Assembly (NCBI GenBank): GCA_003175695.1
Contig: PSRA01000058.1
Coordinates: 1-64,000, forward strand
Source: Bacteroidota bacterium
GTDB taxonomy: Bacteria > Bacteroidota > Bacteroidia > Chitinophagales > Chitinophagaceae
Length of the DNA: 64,000 nt
Reading direction: 5' to 3'
Position 1 is the first letter of the stretch, and every line of letters begins with the position of its first letter. Position numbers and translations under genes: made by a program. Positions 5,242-34,357 of this stretch are shown here, in pieces. Below the pieces are notes generated by a model. That model did no database searches, was not told the DNA's origin, and saw only the letters and a list, made by a program, of their open reading frames with translations.

Positions 5242-8200
5242 ATGAAAGGCACTTTCATCGCCGTGTTTCTTTTATTGGAGTTCATCGCACTTTCAACCTG
5301 TTTGGATTTATGCGCCCAGGATGCCCCAACTAAACTGGAGGTCAATAAGAATAATTTTTCCTCTTTCACTAAACAATATTTGAACCGCGGAAAAATATGG
5401 ATGGCCAGGAATAAAAATTACATAAGTCATCCTGATGCCAGGTTTGGCGACAAATACATGCCCAACAAAAACGCCGTTGAAATATTTGCGAAAAGAACTA
5501 TTGATTCAAAGTATTATATCAATAGTGATACTCCTTCAATTTTTTATATTCAGAAGTCTTCTAGTCCCATGCATTTCAGAAGAAATGGACAATGGATAAC
5601 CATTGACCCAAGACTAAACCCTAAAGGGCAGTCACTATATGAAGCTTCTAGGCAGGAACATCCTCTAGGCTTTGATTTGAAAAGAAAATCCTCTTATATA
5701 ATCACTTCGGAAGGAAAAACATTTTTTAATAATTGGAAGTTGTATGGGGAAAATGACGGAAAAGAAACCTTATTAGCCAATGCTGATTGGACAAATTATA
5801 CTGTCGGGGATGATGGCATCACCATCAAAAATATATTCCCTGGAATTGACGCTGATATGAAAGTCTCCAGGGGCTCAATTAAAACCAGTTTTATAGTTCG
5901 CGTAAATAAATTCTCAAACTATGGTACACTTTTATTTCGTGATTCTTTCACTGGAGGTAAACCAGGGACCTTCACATTTTCAAATGGCCTCCGGGGCAAG
6001 GGGCTGGCCTCAGCTGCTGATTACAGCGTTGGTACGAAGAAAGTTCTTCATATACAGCAAGGCATCATGTACCTGGAAAAAAAACCATCTTCGGCTTTCC
6101 AAAACGTTCCTTACATTCTTGACCATAACAAATTAACCCTGTCCATCAATGCTGATTATTTAAACACCCAGCTGACTTCTGGAAATCTCATCATCGACCC
6201 ACTGGTCCAGGATGTTGGTACGTTGGGCAAAGACAAGATCAACGGTTCGCATTTCAATAATGATTGCAGTTTTACCAAATCCTGTAATTACACGGTGAAT
6301 GTACCTCCTCCGGCTGGGGCAACATTGACTGATGCATTGTTTTCGTTTGGTATTGTTTCTAATGCCCCCTGCACGGGGCAGGATGGAGCTTTTTCGTTTG
6401 CAGTTAATGGCAATTGCATGTCTCATCTTTGGGTAGGCACCAACCAGGGACCAGGAACAGAAACTTTTTCCACTCAAAGTATGATGCTGAATAACGGAGG
6501 AAGTGTTGCCGGCTGTTTTCCAACACCAGGCATGCGCAATTGCACTAATCCGGAAAATATTCCCTTTAATTTTTATTTTTATCGCACTTGTCATGGCGAA
6601 GACGGCTGCAATGGCGATTGCATTGGGGCCGCTCAGGATTTAACGATTACGCTGGTAGGAAGGACCCTTGATTCAGCTTCCATCAAAGCATCGAACGATA
6701 ATTTCTGCGGTGGTACCCCTGTGACGTTAACCGCAAGCGGCTATTACGGCGTTCCTCCTTACACGTTTAATTGGGTTGGATTAAATCAAAATAAAGGCAG
6801 TGTCCAAGTCAGTCCTGCGGCAAATACCACGTACTCTGTCCAAATTAGTGATGCGTGCGGCAGCCCTCCCATTACACAATCAATCAGTGTCCATGTTCTT
6901 CCCGCACCACCCACACCAGCACTCACATCAAACAGCCCGGTATGCGCTGGGGGCCAACTTGTTTTATCAGTTCCCCAGATACAAGGAACAACTTACACAA
7001 TCAAAAACTCGGCAAATGGTTTAGGAGGTCAATACACAAGTTCGGCTGTGTTTAACAATGTGACTGCAGCATACGCTGGAACATGGACTGCAGTCGCAAC
7101 TGATGCCAATGGCTGTACATCTAACGTGGCAAGCACAAACGTTGTAGTAAATTCAAGTATTTCTCCAAAAGTGAGCATCAGTGCTACTACTACCAGAATT
7201 TGCACAGGTGGTCAAGTCACCTTCACTGCAACAGCTGCCAACGGAGGAAATTCCGTCAATTATCAATGGCAATTAAACGGTCAAAATGTAGGTACTAACA
7301 GCCCTCAATATACGGGCAATAACTTCGCTAACAATGATGCTGTGAGTTGTATCGTGACAGCTAACAATCCTTGCGCCAGCGGGTCTGCCACATCAAATGT
7401 CATTGTGTTAAGTGTAAGTCCACAAGTTTCACCAACATTTGCCGCCATAGGCCCGTTATGCCAAAATTCCACGGCACCGCCATTGCCACCTACTTCGCAG
7501 GAAGGAATCCACGGAACGTGGAATCCGGCGTCCATCAACACTTCCCGGGTTGGAACCGCTGTTTATACGTTTACTCCCGCTTCAGGGGATTGTTCTTTGC
7601 CAATTCCTTTGAGCATTACCATCGTTACCTCTGTTACGCCAACGTTTCCAAACCTGACGGATTCGATTTGCCAGAATTCGACTGCACCGCAATTACCCGG
7701 CACTTCTGCGGAAGGAATCACCGGAACCTGGAACCCGTCTTCGATTAGCACATCAAATGTGGGCAAATCCACTTACACCTTTACTCCTACAGATGGCCAG
7801 TGTGGCGTACCAGCAAAAATTGATATAGTAGTCGGGCCGCCTCCGGAATTGAATATGGGTCCGGATTTGAATATAACAGTCGGGACCAGTACTCATTTGG
7901 ACATCACTGTCACAGGTGACATTGTCTCATATCAATGGAGTCCATCCATCGGTTTGAGTGATCCTACCATTAAGGATCCTATCGCAAGCCCGACTATAAC
8001 GACAGTTTACACACTGAATGTTACTGACGCCAATCATTGTGAGGCGAGTGGTAAGATTAAGATTACTGTGTCCGGGGGTGCGTCGAAGATTTCGATACCT
8101 AATGCCTTTTCACCAAATGGCGATGGCGTTAATGACACGTGGGTAATCACTAACCTCTCAAATTTTCCCGGGGCAACCGTAGACGTATTTAATAGATATG

Positions 8201-8349
8201 GTCAGGCTGTTTTTCATTCAGAAAATAATAACAAAGCCTGGGACGGAACCTACAATGGCAAGCCGGTTCCGATGGGAACTTATTATTATATAATCGATTT
8301 AAAGGATAATGAAAAGAAAATAGCTGGATCTGTTACAGTGTTCAAGTAA
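5242..8349 (+). CDS. Large secreted protein with Ig-like/PKD-type repeats and gliding motility-associated C-terminal domain (T9SS substrate type B CTD)
   Basis: 1035 aa; N-terminal signal; C-term 'IPNAFSPNGDGVNDTWVI...VDVFNRYGQAVFHS...WDGTYNGKPVPMGTYYYIIDL'. Confidence 0.9.
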   Translation: MKGTFIAVFLLLEFIALSTCLDLCAQDAPTKLEVNKNNFSSFTKQYLNRGKIWMARNKNYISHPDARFGDKYMPNKNAVEIFAKRTIDSKYYINSDTPSIFYIQKSSSPMHFRRNGQWITIDPRLNPKGQSLYEASRQEHPLGFDLKRKSSYIITSEGKTFFNNWKLYGENDGKETLLANADWTNYTVGDDGITIKNIFPGIDADMKVSRGSIKTSFIVRVNKFSNYGTLLFRDSFTGGKPGTFTFSNGLRGKGLASAADYSVGTKKVLHIQQGIMYLEKKPSSAFQNVPYILDHNKLTLSINADYLNTQLTSGNLIIDPLVQDVGTLGKDKINGSHFNNDCSFTKSCNYTVNVPPPAGATLTDALFSFGIVSNAPCTGQDGAFSFAVNGNCMSHLWVGTNQGPGTETFSTQSMMLNNGGSVAGCFPTPGMRNCTNPENIPFNFYFYRTCHGEDGCNGDCIGAAQDLTITLVGRTLDSASIKASNDNFCGGTPVTLTASGYYGVPPYTFNWVGLNQNKGSVQVSPAANTTYSVQISDACGSPPITQSISVHVLPAPPTPALTSNSPVCAGGQLVLSVPQIQGTTYTIKNSANGLGGQYTSSAVFNNVTAAYAGTWTAVATDANGCTSNVASTNVVVNSSISPKVSISATTTRICTGGQVTFTATAANGGNSVNYQWQLNGQNVGTNSPQYTGNNFANNDAVSCIVTANNPCASGSATSNVIVLSVSPQVSPTFAAIGPLCQNSTAPPLPPTSQEGIHGTWNPASINTSRVGTAVYTFTPASGDCSLPIPLSITIVTSVTPTFPNLTDSICQNSTAPQLPGTSAEGITGTWNPSSISTSNVGKSTYTFTPTDGQCGVPAKIDIVVGPPPELNMGPDLNITVGTSTHLDITVTGDIVSYQWSPSIGLSDPTIKDPIASPTITTVYTLNVTDANHCEASGKIKITVSGGASKISIPNAFSPNGDGVNDTWVITNLSNFPGATVDVFNRYGQAVFHSENNNKAWDGTYNGKPVPMGTYYYIIDLKDNEKKIAGSVTVFK
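7432..7845 (+). repeat. Two tandem ~69-aa protein repeats (PTF..I..LCQNSTAPxLPxTSxEGIxGTWNPxSI.TS.VGxxxYTFTP..GxC)
   Basis: Translated repeat units starting at 7432 and 7639 align throughout. Confidence 0.8.
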
Positions 8350-8366
8350 CTCGTGATTTCAGAATT

Positions 8367-9410
8367 ATGAATTTGAGAAAGAAAATTGTGATCAGTTGTG
8401 TGAGCGTTTTAATATTGAGCAGAGCAGCTGCCCAGCAACAACCCTATTATACGCAATACATCTTAAATAATTTCATTTTAAATCCCGCCCTGGCGGGAAT
8501 AGAAAATTATTGGGACTTCAAAGCAAGTTATCGTAACCAATGGGTCGGACTCGATGGTGCTCCCACCACTCTTTACCTCACTGCGCATGCGCCTATCGGA
8601 AAGACTGCCTATGATAGAGAAAATCCCACTACTGTCCCCGATCTGCAGGCGAAGAATTCAGGTGCTAAGCAATTTTGGATGGAATACACAGCGCCACCCG
8701 CTCATCATGGCGTTGGATTTACCATTCTCAATGATAAAACGGGCCCGCTTAGCCGAATCGCCGCTTACGGATCTTATGCATACCATCTTCCTGTAGGCGT
8801 GAAAACAAGTCTGAGTTTCGGTGTTTCATTTGGTGTGCAGGAAGTAAATGTCGATATCTCGGCCGTAAATTTTGGACAATACAATCCTGTCGATCCGGCG
8901 GCATTAAGCAGTGGTTACCTTAATAAACTGCAACCTGACATGAATGCAGGCCTCTGGTTGTCGAATAAGGATTTTTTTGTGGGGTTATCTGCTCAACAAA
9001 TTATTCCTGTACCCATTAACACCCCCACGCATTCTACGACGGCAGACACGGTAACTCTGCTCAAGGGAAAACTTATTCCACATACGTTTTTAACTGCAGG
9101 ATACAAATACCTGGTAAATGAAGACATCAGCATATTGCCATCAGTTATGTTAAGGTATGTCCAACCTTTACCACTAGGTTTTGACTTGAATGTCAAAGTT
9201 CAATATCAGGATTTATTGTGGGTGGGAGTTTCGTATCGCCTTAGTGAAGGATATGCTGCCATGTTGGGAGTCAATATCAACAGCACTTTTAACCTCGGCT
9301 ACTCCTATGATTTTACGACAGGCCAACTGAATACCGTAAGCAGGGGAACTCATGAAATTGTACTTGGATTCTTGTGGAGAAGGAAAAATAACGAACCATA
9401 TGGAAAGTAA
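8367..9410 (+). CDS. PorP/SprF family type IX secretion system membrane protein
   Basis: 347 aa; 'QQQPYYTQYILNNFILNPALAGIENYWDFKASYRNQWVGLDGAPTT'. Confidence 0.92.
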   Translation: MNLRKKIVISCVSVLILSRAAAQQQPYYTQYILNNFILNPALAGIENYWDFKASYRNQWVGLDGAPTTLYLTAHAPIGKTAYDRENPTTVPDLQAKNSGAKQFWMEYTAPPAHHGVGFTILNDKTGPLSRIAAYGSYAYHLPVGVKTSLSFGVSFGVQEVNVDISAVNFGQYNPVDPAALSSGYLNKLQPDMNAGLWLSNKDFFVGLSAQQIIPVPINTPTHSTTADTVTLLKGKLIPHTFLTAGYKYLVNEDISILPSVMLRYVQPLPLGFDLNVKVQYQDLLWVGVSYRLSEGYAAMLGVNINSTFNLGYSYDFTTGQLNTVSRGTHEIVLGFLWRRKNNEPYGK

Positions 9411-27602: not shown

Positions 27603-27757
27603 CACTATTACTTGAAAACTTTACCATTGCAGGTATCGAAATCTTCCTGGTTCTGAAGTAAAACTGTACAATACAAGGAGGATCAAAATAAAATACCAGA
27701 TGAAAACCAGCAGGTTTGCAAATGGCTTAGGAAAATATTTAAGCAACCATTGATACA

Positions 27758-28870
27758 TTAGCTGAATAATTGTCTAAATTCTATACTTACCGCCGGGATA
27801 TTCTCTGTCCCTATTAATATACAACTGAAGGCAAACGCATGAAACACCCATATTCTTCCAAACCATTTGCCAAAAGGATGATGATTGATGAACTGAGAAA
27901 ATGCTGGCATTGCCTTTCTTGTCCTGACTGTGACCAGGATCAGAAGCGCCTGTAATGCTCCCCACAACACATATCGAATCGATATCTCATGCCAAAGAGC
28001 CAGAACAAGCATCGATGCGATGAGTGCAAACCAACGCTGCCTGGACAATGCTGCTAATGGGTAAAATACATAATCCCGACACCAGCTCGACAAAGATATA
28101 TGCCAACGTTGCCAGAAGTCTTGCATATTCGTGGCCAGAAAAGGGGAATTAAAATTTTCCATCACACGGATTCCCCAGACGAGTCCCATGCCAATTGCCA
28201 GGTCTGAAAAGCCTGCAAATTGAAAATATGCATTGCCAGTGAATGAAACTGTCTGCAGGTAAATCTTCAACAAATTTGAATCAGCCTGCGCCGCAAGTTG
28301 AGTAAGTTTAGCAGCGAAAATAAAATTGCCTAAAAAGTTGATCTTGACCAACCCATACAGCAAACGCTCCAATCCCTCTGAGAACATGTAAGGATCCCAT
28401 TTATATCTTCTGAGGCTACGCTGAAATTCCGGCATCCTGTGTATTGGACCTATGAGCATGACCGGTAGAAAGAGTAAATATTCAAGATATTCTAGGAAAG
28501 CTGGTTTTTTCATCCCCGATTTATAGCATTCAAAGGCAACATGCACCTGGCGGAAGGCATAATATGACAATCCCAGGGGAATAATCCAATGATTGACCTT
28601 GTATCCGGCTTTGTATACGAAAAGTGGGAGAATTGGGAGAACAATCGTAAGGAATACACCCAATTTTCTAAATCTGAAATAATTATTCTTCCAAATCAAC
28701 CATTGCAGAAATGCCACTAGCAGCATAATCAGAACCGAAAGCGGTGCAAACCATCCAAGAACTACCAGCGTAGTCAACATCATAATTTTTGGCCGCCAAT
28801 AATTTGGCAATTGCCACACCAATGGAGAACTTATCAGCACCAACGCTAAGAAAATCAATTGTAACTTCAT
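27758..28870 (-). CDS. MBOAT family O-acyltransferase (DltB/AlgI-like)
   Basis: 'PIHRMPEFQRSLRRYKWDPYMFSEGLERLLYGLVK...GLVWGIRVMENFNSPFLATNMQDFWQRWHISLSSWCRDYVFYPLA...ALWHEISIRYVLWGALQA'; ATG at 28870 gives ATGA overlap with the upstream gene. Confidence 0.92.
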   Translation of the reverse strand: MKLQLIFLALVLISSPLVWQLPNYWRPKIMMLTTLVVLGWFAPLSVLIMLLVAFLQWLIWKNNYFRFRKLGVFLTIVLPILPLFVYKAGYKVNHWIIPLGLSYYAFRQVHVAFECYKSGMKKPAFLEYLEYLLFLPVMLIGPIHRMPEFQRSLRRYKWDPYMFSEGLERLLYGLVKINFLGNFIFAAKLTQLAAQADSNLLKIYLQTVSFTGNAYFQFAGFSDLAIGMGLVWGIRVMENFNSPFLATNMQDFWQRWHISLSSWCRDYVFYPLAALSRQRWFALIASMLVLALWHEISIRYVLWGALQALLILVTVRTRKAMPAFSQFINHHPFGKWFGRIWVFHAFAFSCILIGTENIPAVSIEFRQLFS

Positions 28871-29715
28871 AATGATTTTAATTGAAGGGCAACTTCTCTG
28901 CAAAAAGAATTTGTAAAGAACCTGCTGCCTTTAAGACTCATATGAGTCCGATCACAAAAGAATGTGGAATCAAGATCCAGTTTGTTGTTAAAATATTCCA
29001 GTTTTATCTTTTGCCTCAGGTAGCGCAAATTGGTATTGAATGCACTTGTATCCGCTCTGTGCCATTTTTTAAATTCCTCTGATTTTTCGATGGGGAAATT
29101 GACAAACAGGAAATGGGTCCCTTTTGACTGCCACGCGGCCGCAAGTTCTCGGAAGGAAGAAATATCCGTGGAATCTATCAAACCATTTCTTAATTGTTCC
29201 ACGGTTTTATTGGACACTATCACATTTGGGCGTCTGTCCGGAGAGTATGATTGGTACGCTGAATCCGGATTGATCAACATTCGAAACAGATAGAGATATT
29301 CATTTAAAAATGTTTCATTCAAGGCACGATATGATAACATGTTGGCTTCAACTACAACAATATCCGGTCGTAATTGATCCAATAATTTCATGTTGTCGGC
29401 GAAATTTGACAATGTGCCTCCACGCTTAAATAACTTTACCAGAACTATTGGCTTGCCTGAAATTTCCTTAACTCTTGATTCTATTTTTTCGCTGCTATCC
29501 AGTCCACACTCAACCAGCGAGGTGCCAATGACCAGCACAATGGGTCTGTCTTTGGCGTTAGCGAATTTCCCGGCTACGTACCTGGACTTTGATTCAAAAT
29601 CATATTTAGTTTGCGATCGCTCAAGATGGTTAAGGAGCGGTATCATCAAAAGAACGGCTACAGGCAGGAAAAACCAAATGGCGAGCGGTGGAAATATTTT
29701 CTGGAAATTATCCAT
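28867..29715 (-). CDS. SGNH/DltD-like membrane-anchored protein
   Basis: 282 aa; N-terminal TM, 'PIVLVIGTSLVECGLDSSEKI' GTS motif, C-term 'FFCDRTHMSLKGSRFFTNSF' (D..H). Confidence 0.75.
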   Translation of the reverse strand: MDNFQKIFPPLAIWFFLPVAVLLMIPLLNHLERSQTKYDFESKSRYVAGKFANAKDRPIVLVIGTSLVECGLDSSEKIESRVKEISGKPIVLVKLFKRGGTLSNFADNMKLLDQLRPDIVVVEANMLSYRALNETFLNEYLYLFRMLINPDSAYQSYSPDRRPNVIVSNKTVEQLRNGLIDSTDISSFRELAAAWQSKGTHFLFVNFPIEKSEEFKKWHRADTSAFNTNLRYLRQKIKLEYFNNKLDLDSTFFCDRTHMSLKGSRFFTNSFCREVALQLKSL

Positions 29716-31522
29716 GCTTTTCTTTAATCAGTTCAGTTGCTCTGCGGAGGCTGTTCATCGTGATGACTTCGGCCGTACTGAACCGGATTCTGAAATGATG
29801 TTCAAGAGAAGTTATAAAACTAAGATGTGCCAAAGAATCCCAGCCTCCGACAGTTTGCGATGTATCCTGGATGGAAAGTTTCCAGGCCGGAATCTGGAAT
29901 GACTCTGCCGCTATTTTCAAAACATCTTCGGCCAATTGTCCGTTTACTGGATTTGGCTTCAGCGTTTCCTTTGATAACTGATCTTTCAAGGCATTTAATT
30001 GTACTTTACCAGATACTCCTTTTGGCAAAGCGTCAACTATATATATTCTCGCAGGGACTTTTTTCTCTTCGAGGAATTGGCGGCAGTGCTCCACAATTTC
30101 AAGGCTTGTAGCAGCATGCGCAGATTTTAACACGACAGCAGCAACAAGTTTTTCTCCGAAGACTTCATCAGGCATACCAAGAACGCAGGATTCGGATATA
30201 GCCGGATGCTTTAGCAGGCATTCAGTAACCTCCTCTGGCTGAATATTGATTCCGCCGCAAATAACCAGGTTTTTCTTTCGCCCTTTAATAAGAACAAATC
30301 CGTTCTCATCTTGTAAAGCCAGGTCCCCGGTATAAAACCATGCGTCGTTTATTGCTTCGGTGGTTCTTATCGGATCATCCCAATAATTTTTCATGATATG
30401 CTCACCATTCAAACATAATTCTCCAATTTCTCCCTTTCCAACATCCACTCCTGTTTCATTTATGATTCGAATATTGCAATCGACTGGTTTACCAACTGTA
30501 TATTTTCGATATGTGCCAGGAAAGGGGCCGCAAAACAAACTTCCGGCTACTGTTTCTGTAAGTCCATAAATATTGCAGACCCCAACTTTGAAGATCGACT
30601 CAAATTGATCCCAAACTGGGGCATCCAAATGCGCAGAAACTGAGAGAATTGCTTTGAATTCGGGATACTGAAAACTGTCTTCGTAGTTATCTGAAAACTG
30701 AGTGAACAGGTTCAGCATAGCGGGCACAGCAAAAAAATGAGTGATGCTATTCGCAAAACAATAGTCGAGTAAAAACGGGATCTTTTCAATTGTAAAGCGA
30801 AATGGATTATGCCACGTGCACCCCACATAGGCAGATAATAATGGGCCCTGGATGCATCCGTCCGCATGGCACAACATAAGTTGGTTTAACAAGGCACTGT
30901 CAGGATTCAGATCATAGACCTTTTTCAAAGTAGCTAAATGTGCAGCCAAATTTCCGTGCGTAATAGCAACTCCCTTTGAATCGGCTGTGGTGCCCGAAGT
31001 AAAAATTATATATGCATATACGCTAGAAGGACGCGATTCAGGAATAGATGCCGCCGGGTTTGCTTTCTCAAGCAGAGAAAGATAATCATTGGAAGGTTGC
31101 TCTGTTTTTTGTTTTTGAAGAAATTTTGAAAGGATGCCTCCAGTAGACGCCGCATTTTTCCGATAAGACAAAACAGTAGTGGATTCGGTTGATAAAATCT
31201 TCCAATTTTCCAATGCGGTAATATCTGCAATCAGGCATTTCGGAGAAGTGCGCCTCAGGATGCTCGCGGCTCTCGGTTCTTTCGACTCCGGGTCAGCTAT
31301 CACAGCAGTTATACCGTTTGCCAAAGCAGCAAGAAAAAGAGCGCTCATTTCACTTTCATCAGAAACCGCCAGCATAATCCGATCTCCCTGGCGGATGTTG
31401 AGCGATTCAAAAAGTCCCGAAATTTTTTTGATCTTTTCCTGCAGCCATTGATAGGAATAGCTTTTATTTTCAGTCTGAAGGAAAATTTTTGTGGACGATT
31501 GAGAAAAGAGGTTTTGCAGCAT
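29708..31522 (-). CDS. AMP-dependent ligase (adenylation domain) fused to C-terminal acyl/peptidyl carrier domain
   Basis: 604 aa; 'YIIFTSGTTADSKGVAITHGNL', 'NIYGLTETVAG', 'YTGDLALQDENGFVLIKGRKKNLVICGGINIQP', carrier 'GGWDSLAHLSFITSLEHHF'. Confidence 0.92.
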   Translation of the reverse strand: MLQNLFSQSSTKIFLQTENKSYSYQWLQEKIKKISGLFESLNIRQGDRIMLAVSDESEMSALFLAALANGITAVIADPESKEPRAASILRRTSPKCLIADITALENWKILSTESTTVLSYRKNAASTGGILSKFLQKQKTEQPSNDYLSLLEKANPAASIPESRPSSVYAYIIFTSGTTADSKGVAITHGNLAAHLATLKKVYDLNPDSALLNQLMLCHADGCIQGPLLSAYVGCTWHNPFRFTIEKIPFLLDYCFANSITHFFAVPAMLNLFTQFSDNYEDSFQYPEFKAILSVSAHLDAPVWDQFESIFKVGVCNIYGLTETVAGSLFCGPFPGTYRKYTVGKPVDCNIRIINETGVDVGKGEIGELCLNGEHIMKNYWDDPIRTTEAINDAWFYTGDLALQDENGFVLIKGRKKNLVICGGINIQPEEVTECLLKHPAISESCVLGMPDEVFGEKLVAAVVLKSAHAATSLEIVEHCRQFLEEKKVPARIYIVDALPKGVSGKVQLNALKDQLSKETLKPNPVNGQLAEDVLKIAAESFQIPAWKLSIQDTSQTVGGWDSLAHLSFITSLEHHFRIRFSTAEVITMNSLRRATELIKEKHG

Positions 31523-31531
31523 AAATTAGAT

Positions 31532-34357
31532 TCATTTTATCACCTGAGAATAATTCTCAAGCAACTGTTTTCGTAATACTTTGTTGTGATTTCCCCGCGG
31601 AATCTGGTCCACAGTTTCAATTCTTGCAGGTACTGCGTAAGAGCCAATATTTTCAATCAATTTCCTCCTGATATCCAGCACTACATCTTTTGAGTTTTCA
31701 ATTTGCGAAGGAATAATAAATATGATGATCGATTCTTTTTCCTCATGCATGGCACATACTGCCCAATCAGATAATTCAGGAATTTGTTCCATCACCTCCT
31801 CTATTGCAGCGAGTTCGATCCTTTGACCTGAAGGCAATTTGACGACGTCAGAAATCCTTCCGTAAAGGCTAATACTTCCATCTTGATTTTGCATGGCGAT
31901 ATCCTTTGTATGAAACCATCCGTTTACGAGGCTGGCCTTAGTGGCTTTTTCGTTTTGGAAATATCCGGCAAAAACGCCAGCACCATATATGCAAAGCTCT
32001 CCTCTGGTACCAGGGGCAGCGTCATTTCCATTTTCATCAATGATCCTTATCAAACAGTCGACGGGAACACCAATACTTCTTTCATCGGATGATTGAAAGC
32101 CGGGGGGTTCCGCTATGCAAATACCTGTTGTTTCCGAAAGTCCATAATAATTTTGCAGGTGATTGCCGGTTTGTTGCTGCCATTTCAATCTAGTATCGCG
32201 TGACAGTTGGTTGCCAGTTGATAATGCCAGTCTAACATGACTTAAGGGAGAAAATTTTTCCTGTCTCTTCTCAACAACCAACAATTGCTTGAAAAAAAGT
32301 GGATTAGCTGTTAGAATTGTCACTCTTTCTCTGGCAATTGTTTCAAAATGCGAATGAATGTCTGCTCCCTTTGAAGGAATAATGCAACACGCGCCCGATT
32401 CTGCGATAGCAACAGTGGCATGTCTTAAGCCACTCATGCTCTCCAAACCTCCTAATGCGAAATACCGATCTTTTGTTTCCCATTGATAAGTTTCCGTCAT
32501 GGCCCGACCCGAGTGAATTAATTTCTCATGTGAGACGGGAATTCCTTTCGGGTCATCGGTTGATCCGGTTGTCCAAAGTATCACAGCAACATCTTCAGGA
32601 TCGGGATTTTGACAATATTTCGGACTACTACTTTTTTCATTGTTGCACGAGAAAGTCAACCATGAGTCAAAAGAGTATTCAGATTGATAGGCTGGATCAA
32701 AAGGACTATCGAACATAATTTCTTTCAGGAAAGGCAGGTCATCAATCGCATCAAATCGTGAGGGATCGACAAACGCCATGGAAGGTTTGACCAAATGGAT
32801 GTAATTCCGGATCTGTCGGTCCGATTCCTTTGGAGAAACAGGAACGATGATCATTCCAAGACTAACGGCAGCCCAAAAGAGCAGTATCAATTCAGGTTGC
32901 ATTTCTCCACAGACGAATATCTTGTCTCCCTTGCGCAAACCTTCGCTCAATAAGGCTTTTTTCAGAAGTTCGATTATTTCATCAGCTTGTGAGAATGTGA
33001 GTGATTCTTCTTCTGTTTTAGTGAGAAGTTGTTCGGAATAAGATAAAACTGCATCCTTCCAAAAAGATGACAGATTTTTTTCCTTCTTTTCTAACACATA
33101 TTTCTGATGACCTAATAATGTTTGTAGCCTAAATCCGGCTTCATCGACTGGTACCACCTGCGCCAGCTCAAGATCGAAAGCAGTCTCCAGGATTCTCTGC
33201 ATACCTGTTTTCGAAATACCCGTTTTCTCCCTTATTTCTTTCAACGTATATCCATGCCTGGCCCAATACAAAACTTCAATCAGGCCTCTGTCAATTTTTT
33301 GTCCAATGCTGGTTTTGATAATGTTCAGATAAACCTGGTGTCTTTCCAGCAGCTCATCAATGAGCGGCCCATACAGACTGGTGTTATAAGAAATTGTAAG
33401 TTCAATTTCATCTGCGCTGAGTAGAGGATTCTGCAGTAAATACATATTTTCCCAGTCCTGTTCATGGCCGCGCCACGGTTCCAGGAAAACTTCTTTTTTG
33501 CCAGGCAGCCAGGCAACACATGAATTATAATCTGTATGATTGGGCTCTGAAACCAATGGTTTTTTCTTTTCCGCGCCATGGTCATTCCAGTAAAATGTTG
33601 AAGGTTCGGAGAGAATGTAACCACATCTTCCTGTAATCTGTTCAAGTTGGGCGAACAAGAACGCATATTCCTTACCGTGAAGTTGTCTCATGCCCCTTTC
33701 AAAGAACGGCTCTGGTTTACTATTGGTAAGATGAACATGCGGAAAAATGATTGGTGCCGAAGCCCTGGCTATACGATGCAGATCGGCGAGAAGTTCAGGT
33801 TGATGAAATTGGTGAAGCAAATCCATTCCGACGATAGCAGCTGCCATTCCATTCTCGAATGGCAGGGGTCTCATGAAATCAGCGAAAACAACGGTATGAT
33901 TTTGTCGTCTTTCAGGCGACATCCAATAATCGAAACCTTTATATCCCAGGATGTCCTTGTCTCCTTCCCATACAGTGATAATCTTTTGTTCCGGGAACCA
34001 CCCCGCCAGCATGCTTGCCATCCAACCGCTTCGGTCCCAAAGATTAAGTATGGTATCAACAGGTTGCAGTTGTTCCCTGATATAATTAACGAAAGGAAAT
34101 AGAGCTTTGAACGCCTCATTGAACGGTTGATAGCAGGCATAAAGATCCAGCATGGGGTGCCTTCCTTTTTGGCGGAGGAATCGTTTGTATTTAGACTTAT
34201 TTCTTAAAAGATTATCCTGCAGCTCCGCCAGTTCCTCCTTATGATGATCCGGAAGTATTAAGTCCTTTTTATTCCCAAAATGCAAGTGGCCGATATAGGG
34301 ATAGGAATAACATTGTTGAGGTATAGCTTTCCACCCAGCTTGTTCCATGACAATCAA
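31532..34357 (-). CDS. Multidomain protein: N-terminal methyltransferase-like region, central HTH-like segment, C-terminal AMP-dependent adenylation domain
   Basis: 941 aa; 'ILNLWDRSGWMASMLAGWFPEQKIITVWEGD...FADFMRPLPFENGMAAAIVGMDLLHQFHQPELLADLHRIARASAPIIFPHVH'; 'YTLKEIREKTGISKTGMQRILETAFDL'; 'VILWTTGSTDDPKGIPVSHEKL', 'NYYGLSETTGI', 'WFHTKDIAMQNQDGSISLYGRISDVVKLPSGQRI'. Confidence 0.85.
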   Translation of the reverse strand: MIVMEQAGWKAIPQQCYSYPYIGHLHFGNKKDLILPDHHKEELAELQDNLLRNKSKYKRFLRQKGRHPMLDLYACYQPFNEAFKALFPFVNYIREQLQPVDTILNLWDRSGWMASMLAGWFPEQKIITVWEGDKDILGYKGFDYWMSPERRQNHTVVFADFMRPLPFENGMAAAIVGMDLLHQFHQPELLADLHRIARASAPIIFPHVHLTNSKPEPFFERGMRQLHGKEYAFLFAQLEQITGRCGYILSEPSTFYWNDHGAEKKKPLVSEPNHTDYNSCVAWLPGKKEVFLEPWRGHEQDWENMYLLQNPLLSADEIELTISYNTSLYGPLIDELLERHQVYLNIIKTSIGQKIDRGLIEVLYWARHGYTLKEIREKTGISKTGMQRILETAFDLELAQVVPVDEAGFRLQTLLGHQKYVLEKKEKNLSSFWKDAVLSYSEQLLTKTEEESLTFSQADEIIELLKKALLSEGLRKGDKIFVCGEMQPELILLFWAAVSLGMIIVPVSPKESDRQIRNYIHLVKPSMAFVDPSRFDAIDDLPFLKEIMFDSPFDPAYQSEYSFDSWLTFSCNNEKSSSPKYCQNPDPEDVAVILWTTGSTDDPKGIPVSHEKLIHSGRAMTETYQWETKDRYFALGGLESMSGLRHATVAIAESGACCIIPSKGADIHSHFETIARERVTILTANPLFFKQLLVVEKRQEKFSPLSHVRLALSTGNQLSRDTRLKWQQQTGNHLQNYYGLSETTGICIAEPPGFQSSDERSIGVPVDCLIRIIDENGNDAAPGTRGELCIYGAGVFAGYFQNEKATKASLVNGWFHTKDIAMQNQDGSISLYGRISDVVKLPSGQRIELAAIEEVMEQIPELSDWAVCAMHEEKESIIIFIIPSQIENSKDVVLDIRRKLIENIGSYAVPARIETVDQIPRGNHNKVLRKQLLENYSQVIK

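Follow-up and report, generated by a model that had tools for sequence, protein, structure and literature searches.

In the Dlt pathway, D-alanine bound to the carrier DltC is transferred by the MBOAT protein DltB to the invariant tyrosine within the C-terminal FXYXXF motif of the microprotein DltX, and from there to a serine of DltD (PMC12148441). The tyrosine of this motif carries the acyl group in both DltX and PatA (PMC12148441). Dlt-like systems are also found in Gram-negative bacteria: in Vibrio cholerae glycine is added to lipopolysaccharide by Dlt-like enzymes (PMC3783018), and the dra locus of Bordetella pertussis is described, in the work cited in PMC9410548, as a D-alanylating Dlt-like locus with an unidentified acceptor in the outer membrane. 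Here, a stretch of 64,000 nucleotides (contig PSRA01000058.1, hereafter the window) from the genome of a soil Bacteroidota bacterium (G000) was analysed, which harbors a compact unit of five genes, all located on the minus strand between positions 27621 and 34357. This cassette is likely to encode a complete Dlt-type trans-membrane acyl relay carrying an acyl group other than D-alanine. A Dlt-like relay in a Gram-negative lineage had been proposed in an original prediction based on four of the genes; the proposal is supported by conservation of the component set in nine genomes and strengthened by the DltX-like microprotein encoded beside the four genes.

Organization and conservation of the cassette

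The cassette comprises the following genes, listed in the direction of transcription:

31532..34348, minus strand: open reading frame 1 (ORF1), 938 residues, methyltransferase-like and adenylation domains (Pfam, Foldseek, orthologues)
29708..31522, minus strand: ORF2, 604 residues, adenylation-carrier fusion (Pfam AMP-binding, GWDS motif)
28867..29715, minus strand: SGNH-fold protein, 282 residues, with predicted N-terminal membrane helix, putative DltD/PatB equivalent (Foldseek, invariant residues)
27758..28870, minus strand: MBOAT, 370 residues, DltB-like (NCBIfam and PDB matches, invariant histidines)
27621..27758, minus strand: ORF5, one-helix microprotein of 45 residues, MYQWLLKYFPKPFANLLVFIWYFILILLVLYSFTSEPGRFRYLQW, putative DltX-like acyl shuttle (conservation in 9/9 cassettes, substitution pattern)

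The gaps of the four larger genes agree with the original prediction, with 9 nucleotides between ORF1 and ORF2, -8 between ORF2 and the SGNH gene (ATGGATAA) and -4 between the SGNH and MBOAT genes (ATGA). While these four genes are real, the fifth one at 27621-27758, the ATG of which overlaps the MBOAT stop codon (TAATG), had been overlooked. In the earlier coordinates ORF1 starts with a TTG at 34357, and the mechanically defined MBOAT reading frame begins with a TTG at 28903. Since the homologues begin there, the starts were assigned to the ATG codons at 34348, which fits the homologues better, and 28870, respectively.

Nine complete cassettes from at least four families of Bacteroidota were found, that of the window and eight others (L015, L016, L063, L064, L039, L080, L081 and L082). 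In L015 the start of ORF1 is cut by the contig end; a further locus, L014, is truncated within the MBOAT gene and stands outside the nine. The four-gene block is not a chance arrangement, as it recurs in eight other genomes, and the original prediction, which depended on the block being conserved together, withstood this comparison. In near relatives the cassette genes overlap as in the window. Because the neighbouring genes differ between cassettes, with different flanking genes at each of them, the unit can be delimited to five genes. Pairwise identities correlate among the four large proteins (r 0.93–0.98) and with the microprotein (0.67–0.75), a correlation partly expected from common descent, given the relatedness of the genomes. 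In L081 (9547-11811) the usual order SGNH-MBOAT-microprotein is changed to MBOAT-SGNH-microprotein; the microprotein is retained, with its start overlapping the SGNH stop.

A scan with near-exact peptide patterns from the ORF1 N-terminal alignment, covering one genome per species of 84,980 species, recovered three Chitinophagaceae/Bacteroidetes metagenome-assembled genomes and Pedobacter changchengzhani; such patterns overlook more divergent copies. Sampled genomes were also searched with profiles, which brought to light two more complete cassettes among 299 genomes of the order and a further three among 375 genomes of the class. In these samples, strong matches to the ORF1 N-terminal domain were confined to cassettes or one contig edge (G538), and the remaining matches, near 20 bits, are probably due to chance. 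The sparse distribution of the cassette suggests loss or horizontal transfer. Since the source genome is 79% complete, partners of the cassette may be encoded elsewhere in it.

The microprotein, the MBOAT and the SGNH protein

ORF5 encodes a single hydrophobic helix followed by the C-terminus GRFRYLQW, the F-x-Y-x-x-W motif of which resembles the FXYXXF by which DltX shuttles acyl groups. All nine complete cassettes (9/9) encode a microprotein of 45–47 residues, whose gene immediately follows that of the MBOAT or, in L081 with its exchanged gene order, that of the SGNH protein. Met1, Ala14, Trp21, Tyr22, Leu25, Phe40, Tyr42 and Trp45 are invariant across the nine proteins. When the window copy is compared with the three homologues closest to it, changes are most frequent at third codon positions, and synonymous differences per site (pS) amount to 0.82–0.92 compared to 0.21–0.25 for non-synonymous differences (pN). 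Judged from these sequences, the substitution pattern is that of a translated gene under purifying selection. A spurious small reading frame can be ruled out by the conservation in all nine cassettes, a pN well below pS and the invariant motif.

The assignment of the fourth gene as an MBOAT, as originally proposed, was confirmed by its family match (Pfam, E 4.1e-25). The nearest NCBIfam model is DltB (TIGR04091), albeit with 163 bits below the cut-off of 375, and sequence matches in the PDB are to DltB only (128 bits, E 4e-36). With 366–377 residues the cassette MBOATs are DltB-sized (DltB-type range about 370–420 residues), and His257 and His294 are invariant. None of them displays an acyl-shuttle motif at the C-terminus, which rules out that the motif resides on the cassette MBOAT itself. 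AlgI-type MBOAT paralogs in the genus finish in FIYFQF in all seven cases with readable ends.

The SGNH protein has no match in Pfam or NCBIfam, including no specific match to the DltD family, and a sequence search of the PDB yielded nothing usable. Foldseek, however, retrieved SGNH esterases and E. coli thioesterase I with probabilities of 0.97–1.00, at E-values of 3e-3 or weaker. The G-x-S and D-x-x-H motifs noted in the original prediction are present in the window protein, and the corresponding residues Gly64, Ser66, Asp255 and His258 are invariant across the nine homologues despite identities down to about 15%. As a query over 396 Bacteroidota genomes the SGNH protein recovered the window only, because it diverges too fast.

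ORF2 and the nature of the acyl group

The adenylation domain of ORF2 is matched by Pfam AMP-binding (E 4.6e-59), and the carrier serine motif GWDS is invariant in 9/9 ORF2 proteins, which supports the earlier suggestion that the functions of DltA and DltC are fused in one protein. In a Pfam PP-binding scan of two copies, the Pedobacter orthologue scored 22.1 bits against a cut-off of 20.8, with the window copy below. ORF1 and ORF2 reach 107 and 95 bits, respectively, on the DltA model, the cut-off of which is 560. Acyl-CoA ligases are the nearest families of ORF2 and the generic best matches of the adenylation domains.

In DltA of B. cereus, Asp197 contacts the amino group of D-alanine (PMC8972799). 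The corresponding position is occupied by Asp in 3/3 DltA controls, whereas the six cassettes aligned with them have Ala or Val in their ORF2 and Met in their ORF1. In three cassettes added later, the position, read within the same motifs, holds Ala, Val or Ser in ORF2 (Ser in L082) and Met in ORF1. Since neither adenylation domain has the amino-group aspartate, D-alanine is probably not the group transferred. In ORF2, the pocket motif H-x-D-G-x-x-Q-G-P is shared without change by the nine cassettes and a relative from Sulfitobacter, and therefore the substrate may be common to all of them. A DNA pattern for HADG-x-IQGP, which proved too strict, found the window only among the 396 genomes. A substrate assignment from resemblance to oxalate- and malonate-CoA ligases was dropped, as the residues considered for substrate contact vary between cassettes.

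Domain structure of ORF1

ORF1 is composed of a methyltransferase-like region (residues about 1–320), a helical, possibly winged-helix region (about 325–420) and an adenylation domain (about 445–935; Pfam AMP-binding, E 6.8e-59), and its orthologues in the other eight complete cassettes share 31–62% identity. The original description as an adenylation protein thus applies to the C-terminal half; the N-terminal region of about 425 residues had not been recognised. A low-confidence model of this N-terminus retrieved class I S-adenosylmethionine-dependent methyltransferases from the PDB (Foldseek, best E 5e-8, probability 1.00), including O-methyltransferases of the DnrK type, which would point to a Rossmann-type fold; Pfam Methyltransf_11 matches below threshold, and a PDB sequence match for this part was not found. 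A stretch at residues of about 180–230 (window 33650-33810) is conserved as FPHVHL-x-N...P-x-P-(F/Y/W)-F-x-R-G...HG, and its invariant histidines could bind metal or act in catalysis. Because this stretch is conserved and WDRSGW replaces the G-x-G motif, the modelled domain may be a methyltransferase that has diverged or taken on another function.

Proposed relay and alternative explanations

From the parts, their conservation and the positions of their motifs we infer a relay, its membrane topology and its acceptor as follows. ORF2 would adenylate a carboxylic acid with ATP and load its own carrier domain, as suggested by its domains and invariant residues. In the cytoplasm, ORF1 would make, modify or co-activate the acyl group, which is the weakest step of the scheme. 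The DltB-like MBOAT would then transfer the carrier-bound acyl group to Tyr42 in the F-x-Y-x-x-W motif of the microprotein, a step proposed because the mechanisms of DltX and PatA have been shown experimentally and the motif is strictly conserved in the cassettes. Finally, the membrane-anchored SGNH protein would take over the acyl group on Ser66 and esterify an acceptor in the periplasm, for which a glycan or lipid of the envelope is the most likely candidate. As a sequence-based proposal, the order carrier, MBOAT, tyrosine shuttle and SGNH protein is well supported.

Several observations weigh against this scheme. Two adenylation domains face a single carrier, which the relay does not explain. 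The methyltransferase assignment of ORF1 depends on a low-confidence model (predicted local distance difference test score 52), and the G-x-G-type motif I is absent, its place being taken by WDRSGW or the variants WDRSAY and WNRTGW. The microprotein is not matched by the Pfam DltX model, and its motif closes with Trp instead of the Phe of FXYXXF. Moreover, an alignment gap lies close to the position of the amino-group aspartate, and McyG takes L-Phe despite a Val at this position (review PMC11253843), an exception due to which an amino acid may still be the substrate.

An ordinary Gram-negative Dlt system, in which D-alanine (or glycine) is esterified to an envelope component as in Bordetella dra, would share the parts list of the cassette down to the DltX-like microprotein, and classical Dlt sets do exist in Gram-negative bacteria, as on a plasmid of Klebsiella electrica; the dra locus is a published case of D-alanylation (cited in PMC9410548). 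However, the scores of ORF1 and ORF2 far below the DltA cut-off, the aspartate missing from both proteins and the proximity of ORF2 to acyl-CoA ligases render this explanation improbable. The acyl-CoA ligases found as generic best matches of the adenylation domains would also fit an activation of fatty acids for lipid metabolism, with the adjoining MBOAT-SGNH pair unrelated to it and using acyl-CoA. Considering that ORF2 possesses a carrier domain of its own and that the five genes form a fixed unit in nine genomes, in which genes overlap and divergence is correlated, we regard this as highly improbable.

Alternatively, the same relay could serve natural-product tailoring, with a secreted small molecule or lipid as acceptor instead of an envelope polymer. 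Fusions of methyltransferase and adenylation domains are typical of natural-product pathways, and glycan or lipid genes were not found next to any of the nine cassettes. On the other hand, core biosynthesis genes for non-ribosomal peptides, polyketides or terpenes do not adjoin the cassettes either, and MBOAT-SGNH pairs whose function is known have polymers of the envelope or the extracellular space as their targets (PMC12148441), so that a small-molecule acceptor appears unlikely. With somewhat more confidence than doubt, the cassettes can be taken to represent an undescribed Gram-negative branch of carrier-fed MBOAT-SGNH-microprotein relays, in which an acyl group that lacks an amino group and may be methylated is attached to an envelope molecule. 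Such a branch would show that DltX-like shuttle microproteins are not confined to D-alanylation.

Other loci

Elsewhere in the window (5242-9410, plus strand), a gene for a large secreted protein with a gliding/type IX-type C-terminus is followed by a PorP/SprF-like gene. A plasmid of Lactobacillus helsingborgensis (NZ_CP084385.1, L066:3205-8482) carries dltABCD with a long DltD (752 residues) and, not far away, a lanthionine synthetase gene; the 330 bases preceding dltA showed no DltX reading frame.

Comparison with known systems

Like the Dlt pathway, the cassette combines adenylation and carrier functions with a DltB-like MBOAT, an SGNH protein and a microprotein with a C-terminal F-x-Y-x-x-aromatic motif, the length of 45 residues being that of DltX from Enterococcus casseliflavus. 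The layout is that of Dlt, too: the DltB-sized MBOAT is devoid of the motif, which resides on a protein of its own. In contrast to Dlt, DltA and DltC are fused, the amino-group aspartate is absent, ORF1 is added, the microprotein ends in Trp and escapes the Pfam DltX model, which found no match in the microprotein's own genome, and the SGNH protein lacks a family match. Moreover, no teichoic acid is expected as acceptor; teichoic acid synthesis is not known from Bacteroidota. In PatA-PatB and AlgI-type O-acetyltransferases the acyl group likewise passes from the MBOAT via a shuttle tyrosine to the SGNH serine (PMC12148441); however, these systems use acetyl-CoA as donor and carry the motif on the MBOAT, whereas the cassette would use a carrier as donor and a separate shuttle protein.

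Among Gram-negative bacteria, dra of Bordetella resembles the cassette as a Dlt-like relay, as far as its published description goes. The Klebsiella electrica plasmid (NZ_CP041250.1, L056:4502-8554) harbors a classical five-gene Dlt set with a microprotein of 40 residues (FEYQKF), annotated as hypothetical; unlike in the cassette, DltA and DltC are separate, DltA keeps the aspartate and ORF1 is absent. An MBOAT similar to that of this set is encoded on a plasmid of Enterobacter cloacae. With dra, Vibrio cholerae and Klebsiella electrica as examples, the claim of the original prediction that a Dlt-like operon in a Gram-negative lineage is new in itself is not supported.

A plasmid of Sulfitobacter pontiacus (NZ_CP049347.1) encodes an ORF2-like adenylation-carrier fusion (32% identity, HADG-x-IQGP), an SGNH protein, an MBOAT and an unannotated one-helix microprotein ending in IIYIDLQEAQ (L052:3372-7194, plus strand; microprotein at about 7035-7194). 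Unlike the cassette, this locus has no ORF1, and a sugar-acetyltransferase-like gene comes before it. About 1.7 kb further upstream lies a gene for a glycosyltransferase, which provides, at this one locus, weak evidence for a glycan acceptor. A plasmid search with the Sulfitobacter ORF2 made no second locus of this type evident.

A description of the five-gene cassette was not found in the literature, with most subscription journals lying outside the search. Non-Dlt acylation pathways have been stated to lack both a DltX-like microprotein and a carrier (2025, PMC12148441); the cassette has both, together with adenylation domains unlike DltA. This points to the separate-shuttle architecture as a module used generally to export carrier-bound acyl groups, and the cassette predicts a new surface modification in Bacteroidota. 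With about 45 codons and no recognition by Pfam, the shuttle genes are easily overlooked. From the known Gram-negative Dlt-like loci the cassette differs in its adenylation chemistry, in the fusion in ORF2, in the presence of ORF1 and in having a shuttle microprotein within a system that does not appear specific for D-alanine.

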